Source: Pyropia yezoensis
Lineage: Eukaryota > Rhodophyta > Bangiophyceae > Bangiales > Bangiaceae
Reading direction: 5' to 3'
Assembly: GCA_009829735.1 (NCBI GenBank)
Contig: CM020620.1
Span: 8,944,545 to 9,008,544, forward strand
DNA length: 64,000 bases
Position 1 is the first letter of the stretch. Each line of letters begins with the position of its first letter. The translations under genes and the position numbers were made by a program. Shown piece by piece: positions 39,362 through 40,614 of this stretch. The notes beneath the pieces are model-generated. The model made no database searches. It was not told the DNA's origin and worked only from the letters and a program-made list of their open reading frames with translations.

Positions 39362-39951
39362 CTACGCCTCTCCGAGGCATGCTGGCGACTCCGTTTGGTC
39401 TACAATGACGGGGACCACCACCCGCTGAACCACCACTGTCGGGTCCCGTTGGGCCGCCCAGGCCGCTGCGGTGCCACCCCAATCCTCTGACACAGCCGCC
39501 GCGCTGCGGCCGCCACCCACGCTTGTGCAGGTGGTGTTGCGTTGCGGCCAGTGGCTGACGGCGAGGGTTGGGGGGGGGGGGAGGGGGACCGCAACCCTGG
39601 CACCACCCGTGGCGGCGACGGCGATGGCGTCGCTGGGAGCGGCGGCGACCCCGTGGCCTCCGTCATGGACGGCCATAAGGATTCCGCCGCCGCCGCCACT
39701 AGCGCTACGGTGAGCGTGCGTGTCACTCGCCCCGGCCACACGCGTTGCAAGCGCGGCGGCCGGTAGCCCGCCCGGTCTGAGATGCCCCGCCACGACGCCG
39801 CGGAGCTCCTCCTCCACAGCCGCCACGCGGGAAGCTGGCAGCCGCAACGGCGGGCCGTACTTGCGGGAGAAGAAGGCGGCAGCGTTGGCACCCTCACCGG
39901 CCCGGCGACGGCAAGCGCCGCCACGCCGGGAAGGGAAGCGTCGCGAGCGGC
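39362..39951 (-). pseudogene. Coding-like fragment interrupted by the TRIM element
   Basis: A minus-strand frame with balanced composition ends at 39362. It includes AFFSRKYGPPLRLPASRVAAVEEELRGVVAG and later NTTCTSVGGGRSAAAVSEDWGG. It is cut at its 5' side by the LTR element inserted at 39952. I do not recognise the protein. It is probably a remnant of a host or transposon gene rather than an intact one. Confidence 0.3.
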
Positions 39952-40165
39952 TGTAGCAGAAGTCACCTTGAAATCGCCGGAAAAATCGATGTTGGATGCC
40001 CGGATTCGAACCCACGCCATGGAACATATGTTAACCAGGCGTTGTGGACCACTGCGCCACGGGTTGAATCCTTGACATCTTGGGCCAGATATGGGCTTTT
40101 CAGCCCAAGTCCTTACAGCACCGATCGCTGGGTCCGTTATACGTGGCAGTCGCGATACTGCCACA
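39952..40165 (-). repeat. LTR, plus-strand-left copy (3' LTR of the element)
   Basis: 214 bp. On the minus strand it begins TGTGGCAGTATCGCGACTGCCAC, whose arms GTGGCAGT and ACTGCCAC form a hairpin, and ends TTCTGCTACA. It contains a tRNA-like segment. Confidence 0.8.
40002..40059 (-). promoter_or_regulatory. tRNA-like A and B boxes in the LTR
   Basis: On the minus strand, TGGCGCAGTGG (40049-40059) matches the Pol III A-box consensus and GGTTCGAATCC (40002-40012) is a perfect B box, 36 bases downstream, close to tRNA spacing. The T-stem and acceptor do not pair properly, so this is tRNA-derived rather than a working tRNA gene. Confidence 0.7.
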
Positions 40166-40395
40166 TATCCCCCTTCCGAAGGCTTGACCGCCCCGGTCAA
40201 GTAACGTTCCCGGCTACTTCCGCGACTACTCCGAGACGACTTCCACCGTGCAGCTGGAAATTCCGGTACTTAGGTAGACGGACGACTTACGGCATACTGA
40301 CTTCCACACGCTTCCTGGAACGTGCCTCCGGGGCCCCAACCGGAGGGTACCCGTCCGCCTCGCTGGTCACCGTACTCCCCTGCTGCTCCACCAAA

Positions 40396-40609
40396 TGTAG
40401 CAGAAGTCACCTTGAAATCGCCGGAAAAATCGATGTTGGATGCCCGGATTCGAACCCACGCCATGGAACATATGTTAACCAGGCGTTGTGGACCACTGCG
40501 CCACGGGTTGAATCCTTGACATCCTGGGCCAGATATGGGGTTTTCAGCCCAAGTCCTTACAGCACCGATCGCTGGGTCCGTTATACGTGGCAGTCGCGAT
40601 ACTGCCACA
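40396..40609 (-). repeat. LTR, plus-strand-right copy (5' LTR of the element)
   Basis: 214 bp, nearly identical to the other LTR and followed by the GCGGC target duplication. Confidence 0.8.
40446..40503 (-). promoter_or_regulatory. tRNA-like A and B boxes in the second LTR
   Basis: The same TGGCGCAGTGG (40493-40503) and GGTTCGAATCC (40446-40456) as in the other LTR. Confidence 0.7.
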
Positions 40610-40614
40610 GCGGC

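Follow-up and report, generated by a model that had tools for sequence, protein, structure and literature searches.

What transcribes an element that has no room for genes of its own, and whose proteins move it? Both questions are raised by a miniature LTR element (TRIM) in a stretch of 64,000 nucleotides of the red alga Pyropia yezoensis, hereafter the window, for which the sequence-only reading had proposed a tRNA-like Pol III promoter inside each LTR. Here, the anatomy of the element is placed into the context of its family and of a Ty3/gypsy family with which it is found joined.

Anatomy of the element

Two direct repeats of 214 bp each, 99% identical, lie at 39952-40165 and 40396-40609 of the window and mismatch at LTR positions 70 and 86 only. 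Both start with TG and end with CA, and GCGGC on either flank of the element represents a 5-bp target duplication. With the 230 bp of interior between the LTRs the element totals 658 bases, and this arrangement of 214 + 230 + 214 bp leaves no room for gag-pol. In the minus-strand reading the interior starts with the primer site, TTTGGTGGAGCAGCAGGGG, and finishes with the purine tract, GGAAGGGGGATA, and from the positions of these two it follows that the sense strand of the element is minus. On the sense strand each LTR carries an A box, TGGCGCAGTGG (LTR positions 107-117), and, after a gap of 36 bases, a B box, GGTTCGAATCC (154-164), followed by TTTTT (181-185). The features are located as follows.

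40610..40614, no strand: target duplication GCGGC, high-coordinate side
40396..40609, minus strand: 5' LTR, 214 bp, TG..CA
40493..40503, minus strand: A box of the 5' LTR (LTR 107-117)
40446..40456, minus strand: B box of the 5' LTR (LTR 154-164)
40425..40429, minus strand: TTTTT of the 5' LTR, a possible Pol III terminator that would have to be read through (putative role)
40166..40395, minus strand: interior, 230 bp, too short for gag-pol
40377..40395, minus strand: primer-binding site region TTTGGTGGAGCAGCAGGGG, 16/17 to tRNA-Ala(TGC) plus CCA
40183..40200, minus strand: hairpin TTGACCGGGGCGGTCAAG before the purine tract, core 12/13 common to the gypsy family
40166..40177, minus strand: purine tract GGAAGGGGGATA
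39952..40165, minus strand: 3' LTR, 214 bp, TG..CA
40049..40059, minus strand: A box of the 3' LTR
40002..40012, minus strand: B box of the 3' LTR
39981..39985, minus strand: TTTTT of the 3' LTR, presumed transcript end (putative role)
39947..39951, no strand: target duplication GCGGC, low-coordinate side

The LTRs with their TG..CA ends, the interior, the duplication, the primer site and the purine tract had all been named by the sequence-only reading and are borne out, and the element is confirmed as a real, well-formed TRIM. Its description as young is fair for this copy, in which the LTR pair differs at 2 of 214 positions. The A and B boxes likewise stand on the sense strand of each LTR, but the spelling GGTTCGAATCC given for the B box proves to be private to the window copy (2 of 58 full LTRs). 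The 64-kb window, with a GC content of 66.8%, contains no further TRIM copy and no match to the gypsy query pieces. The published P. yezoensis genome is described as having 65% GC, with LTR retrotransposons predominant among its repeats. The suggestion of a red alga in the sequence-only reading agrees with this host.

The family in the genome

The family was gathered by searches of 107.48 Mb of the P. yezoensis genome, with three large contigs of 43.6, 34.3 and 29.4 Mb, in which the whole element, the LTR, the box region, the interior and the LTR start served as queries. It comprises at least 58 places, at least 66 LTRs (58 of them full-length) and 14 interiors; the counts are lower bounds, as the best candidates were scored in most searches, while for the interior 14 of 14 candidates were scored. 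The LTR stands alone at 45 of the 58 places, LTR-interior-LTR is found at 6 (one truncated), LTR-interior-LTR-interior-LTR at 1 and interior-LTR at 6. The column counts given below exclude the 8 truncated LTRs of the 66, and the duplication count excludes the 14 incomplete places of the 58.

The reading of GCGGC as a target duplication is upheld by other insertions: a perfect 5-bp duplication flanks 31 of 44 complete copies, and one that is off by a single base flanks 6 more, whereas flanks shifted outward as a control gave 0 of 264. By type, perfect duplications flank 26 of the 38 solo LTRs and 4 of the 5 full elements, as well as the one tandem copy (1/1). As the insertions at C1:15446746 and C1:15528833 look like a single insertion duplicated as a mirror image, it can be inferred that 30 duplications are independent. 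Seven complete places have neither a duplication nor a near-duplication, among them C1:27590538 and C1:37093095, which are parts of the composites described below. At C2:4231247, also lacking a duplication, the TRIM runs directly into gypsy interior. The 38 complete solo LTRs are of the form left behind by LTR-LTR recombination.

The LTRs of a pair differ at 2 positions per 214 in the window copy and at 5, 11, 18, 0, 1 and 0 in the others. Three of the 14 interiors belong to a second subtype that is ~73% identical. The copy at C2:22041652-22042316 has LTRs 98.6% identical to those of the window and identical to each other around an interior of the second subtype (73% identical), and the subfamilies seem here to have exchanged LTR and interior. 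Another copy, L006 (C1:40491328-40491980), has the LTR 3' end at both of its outer ends, CACGC on either side and an AT-rich inverted junction located at the LTR palindrome AACATATGTT; it looks like an integrated fold-back reverse transcript. At L090 (C3:21572095-21572290), a TRIM LTR is cut at position 196 and joined to the reversed end of another LTR family.

Putative promoter boxes in the LTR

Conservation across the family is informative for the putative promoter. Of the 58 full LTRs, 54 have the exact A box, 53 have a B box that agrees with GGTTCRANNCC, and 49 have the B-box spelling GGTTCGATTCC. A degenerate pattern of A box followed by B box is found twice in the 64-kb window, compared with 0 in 60 first-order Markov copies of it. 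Over the 22 box positions of the 58 LTRs, 16 substitutions were counted against 37.7 expected from the other positions (LTR columns 63 and 70 excluded from this background), a count equalled or undercut in 3 of 213 shifted placements, with a p value that is overstated because the copies are related and not independent. The depletion is seen both in the 11 oldest copies (8 substitutions against 19.1 expected; 16 of 213 shifts as low) and in the 47 younger ones (8 against 18.6; 7 of 213), and when T5 and both subfamily columns were counted as well (all columns), 9 of 213 shifts were as low. The LTR ends are conserved as well, at 1.57 and 1.25 per 100.

The T5 run itself is not conserved above background (3.79 versus ~3.4 per 100); it is intact in 48 of the 58 full LTRs, and at least T4 is present in 49. 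It also sits in the 5' LTR, and nowhere else does the sense strand of the element have four or more T in a row. Genome-wide, the pattern CAGTGG-B box-T4 gave 72 overlapping matches, compared with 0 for the reversed pattern, and it occurs at four places outside the TRIM family, one of which is a tRNA-Thr gene. The other three, arrangements of A box, B box and T4 at C1:1740326, C3:2859086 and C3:10470438, may be tRNA genes, SINEs or other such elements.

The description of the promoter as tRNA-like holds for the boxes and fails beyond them. ARAGORN in its bacterial setting calls no tRNA, the Rfam tRNA model gives no match at E≤10, and in comparison of the LTR with 18 host tRNA sequences, among which no isotype stands out as a source, 253 of 300 box-keeping shuffles score as high or higher. 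A functional tRNA was rejected on the ARAGORN and Rfam results. The best fold of the LTR is a long hairpin in which the B box is paired with a near-copy upstream, with no cloverleaf. Retrozymes carry a hammerhead ribozyme in the LTR; this identity was rejected, as was a 5S promoter of the Cassandra type, with no match at E≤10 to the Rfam hammerhead and 5S models, respectively.

Primer site and candidate Ty3/gypsy partner

When CCA is added to the 3' end of the tRNA-Ala(TGC) gene at L030, 16 of 17 bases of that end match the complement of the primer site, as read from the tRNA sequence directly; a scripted score of 14 used a tRNA call with extra end bases, and the comparison set consisted of 30 of 43 scored tRNA matches. 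A pattern search for further tRNA-Ala genes gave 4 matches, none called as a tRNA and all located in the primer sites of another LTR family. With up to 3 mismatches, the primer-site word occurs 1746 + 1763 times genome-wide (~3,500), for instance at L097 and L098, compared with 64 times for the reversed word, and it is found in at least two other LTR families. It follows from these numbers that one primer serves several LTR families here, and because several families have it, the primer site by itself would not point to the gypsy partner.

The candidate partner is represented by a Ty3/gypsy element of 9,381 bp at C1:37093325-37102705, with LTRs of 469 bp that are identical to each other at 465 of 469 positions. 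Reverse transcriptase (RVT_1), RNase H, integrase zinc-binding and integrase core domains are matched above their cut-offs, and a chromodomain is matched under its cut-off. The gypsy LTR has 1143 candidate places at first look, of which the best 40 were scored. TRIM and gypsy are alike over the 11 bp with which the LTR begins, the opening 20 bp of the interior (the primer site) and 12 of 13 bases in the core of a hairpin right before the purine tract. Taken alone, the hairpin match is weak (E 0.22), and it gains weight because of its position and its retention in the second TRIM interior subtype. At L040, a TRIM solo LTR is nested inside gypsy interior with a duplication of its own, GGGCA.

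Copia was also considered as a helper. Two Copia-type loci of 3.7 kb each were compared, out of 144 RVT_2 matches in the genome; the exact primer site is absent from both, and neither gypsy nor TRIM queries match them. With two loci covered, Copia may still have a role. Copia reverse transcriptase matches at C1:23419940, C1:23424950 and C1:23429960 are spaced by exactly 5,010 bp, each in an open frame of 1524 amino acids, and are apparently a Copia element in a tandem array.

Joint insertions of TRIM and gypsy

At seven places (L004, L060, L081, L049, L078, L066 and L058), parts of TRIM and gypsy are found joined in the same direction. Both outer ends were located for three of these composites, and each of the three has one perfect 5-bp duplication. 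The composite at C1:27581154-27591195 reads gypsy-TA-TRIM within the duplication CAGGA; its gypsy LTRs are 8,911 bp apart, compared with 8,912 bp in the complete copy, with ~6.6 kb between them not sequence-compared. In the composite at C1:37093095-37102705, a TRIM LTR is followed by 16 bp and then the gypsy element within the duplication CCTCG; the joining 16 bp resemble the gypsy purine tract, and ~0.6 kb near the end of the composite was outside the comparison. The composite at C2:28645332-28655158 is flanked by AAAAC and reads gypsy LTR-TRIM interior-TRIM LTR-gypsy interior-gypsy LTR. Its outer LTRs are identical at 458 of 470 aligned positions, and its gypsy interior measures 8,438 bp against 8,443 bp, its middle being outside the comparison. 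In this last composite, as in L049 and L078, the switch between TRIM and gypsy falls exactly at the common primer site. For the far ends of L058, L049, L078 and L066, no match was found in L103, L104, L122, L106 or L121. A GAGCG beside L066 was considered as the duplication of a short hybrid and dropped, the left-hand sequence being the end of gypsy interior.

The CAGGA and CCTCG composites look like end-joined cDNAs integrated together, with scraps of purine tract between them, and the switch in the AAAAC composite is as strand transfer between co-packaged cDNAs would leave it. The sequence itself establishes one joint insertion with TRIM and gypsy ends as its borders, and we infer that it arose inside a shared particle.

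Alternative explanations

tRNA-derived SINEs are single units without TG..CA pairs and have no fixed 5-bp duplication. It could be supposed that such a SINE, typically equipped with A and B boxes, lies here twice in tandem by chance with no LTR element involved, and the lone LTR copies as the commonest form of the family (45 of 58 places) would agree with this. The fixed 5-bp duplications and exact LTR ends nevertheless refute a SINE identity, the primer site and purine tract are correctly placed, and the 214-bp unit does not move alone, with five complete LTR-interior-LTR copies and one tandem copy. The box region as query gave 71 first-look candidates compared with 74 for the whole LTR, and the best 40 of the 71 match at 96% or more, with no separate SINE among the matches listed; a chance tandem is scarcely credible. 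An ordinary TRIM transcribed by Pol II, in which the boxes are leftovers or chance and have no role in its spread, is more plausible and still rather unlikely. It agrees with the lack of a tRNA signal beyond the boxes and with a T5 run no better conserved than its surroundings, but would have to accommodate boxes with under half the expected substitutions in old and young copies alike and a pattern absent from all 60 Markov copies of the window.

For the composites, it is conceivable that separate TRIM and gypsy insertions recombined or nested after integration, with no shared life cycle. Most complex LTR elements are ascribed to such recombination in the treatment by Sabot & Schulman 2007 (PMC1950507), and the 20 identical primer-site bases of the two families could provide for it; the nested solo LTR at L040 exists, and the AAAAC composite could be a gypsy insertion that later gained TRIM sequence. 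This explanation nevertheless appears improbable. The CAGGA and CCTCG composites each have one TRIM LTR and one gypsy LTR as outer ends within a single perfect duplication, and such mixed ends are not a simple outcome of later exchange or nesting.

Relation to known elements

The sequence-only reading had seen in this promoter a parallel to Cassandra, and its novelty is lower than was estimated there, as TRIMs with tRNA-derived LTR sequence were described in 2024 under the name Helenus, within a wider kind termed TRIMp3 (Kojima 2024, PMC10886601). Like Helenus, the present element is a miniature LTR element with a short TG..CA LTR pair, A and B boxes in the LTR, a primer site, a purine tract and solo LTRs; the 5-bp duplications are those of fungal and plant Helenus, and 658 bp lies within the Helenus range of 311-1263 bp. 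The 4- or 5-bp duplication that serves as a test for Helenus is represented here by the 31 of 44 perfect 5-bp duplications. The LTR of P. yezoensis differs in resembling a tRNA in its boxes alone, from which a derivation from tRNA is not demonstrable, and the main-text table of that article lists fungi, animals and Selaginella, with red algae absent from it. In the same article, primer and interior similarity are the basis for proposing Copia as the partner in fungi and Gypsy in animals, one fungal family having interior sequence in common with a Copia element, whereas the present case has joint insertions with a gypsy family. Passages of the article describe how TRIMs maintain dependence on an autonomous element as unexplained and state that nothing indicates which family mobilizes Cassandra.

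Cassandra (PMC7215508) is likewise a TRIM, its LTR has a promoter and a terminator of the Pol III type, and tandem copies of it occur; it differs in that its promoter is derived from 5S rRNA. TRIMs have been reported from another red alga, Chondrus crispus (Gao 2016, PMC4717578), with putative autonomous partners proposed for some families through LTR and interior sequence in common; the terms "pol III" and "tRNA-like" are absent from the main text. Template switching has been proposed for Triticeae composites (Sabot & Schulman 2007, PMC1950507), in which a single 5-bp duplication likewise encloses two elements with an LTR in common; those partners are close relatives within one family, whereas TRIM and gypsy are alike here in short signals only. 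In open-licence literature, we found neither a red-algal case of the Helenus/TRIMp3 type nor joint-insertion evidence for a Pol III-type TRIM. The kind is known, and as far as searched, red algae are a lineage new to it.

Proposed life cycle and significance

The element is probably a TRIM of the Helenus/TRIMp3 type in P. yezoensis, with a putative Pol III promoter, that is moved by the Ty3/gypsy family. In the 5' LTR, TFIIIC would bind the A and B boxes, and Pol III would start a little upstream of the A box, occasionally pass the T5 there without terminating and stop at the same T5 of the 3' LTR, which could yield an RNA of ~0.5 kb with a terminal repeat of ~90 nt. As the sequence evidence suggests, tRNA-Ala may then prime reverse transcription at the primer site common to the abundant 9.4-kb Ty3/gypsy family, and the proteins of that family may copy the TRIM and integrate it with 5-bp target duplications. 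The signals used could be the 11 bp at which the LTR begins, together with the 20-bp primer site and the hairpin beside the purine tract, and later recombination between LTRs would leave mostly solo LTRs. More tentatively, it is possible that this is a red-algal TRIM transcribed by Pol III, primed by tRNA-Ala, and packaged and integrated by a Ty3/gypsy element that has hardly more than these signals in common with it, with the joint insertions as a record of co-packaging.

The evidence for the partner is the most interesting part of this case, as it bears on how Pol III-type TRIMs find a helper, and the joint insertions point to one helper family. If the proposal is true, the helper of a Pol III-type TRIM would be identified from physical joint products, and red algae would be added to the hosts of such TRIMs. 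It would also narrow the signals that suffice for hijacking to a short list, and those that TRIM and gypsy have in common are of a length that permits individual testing.
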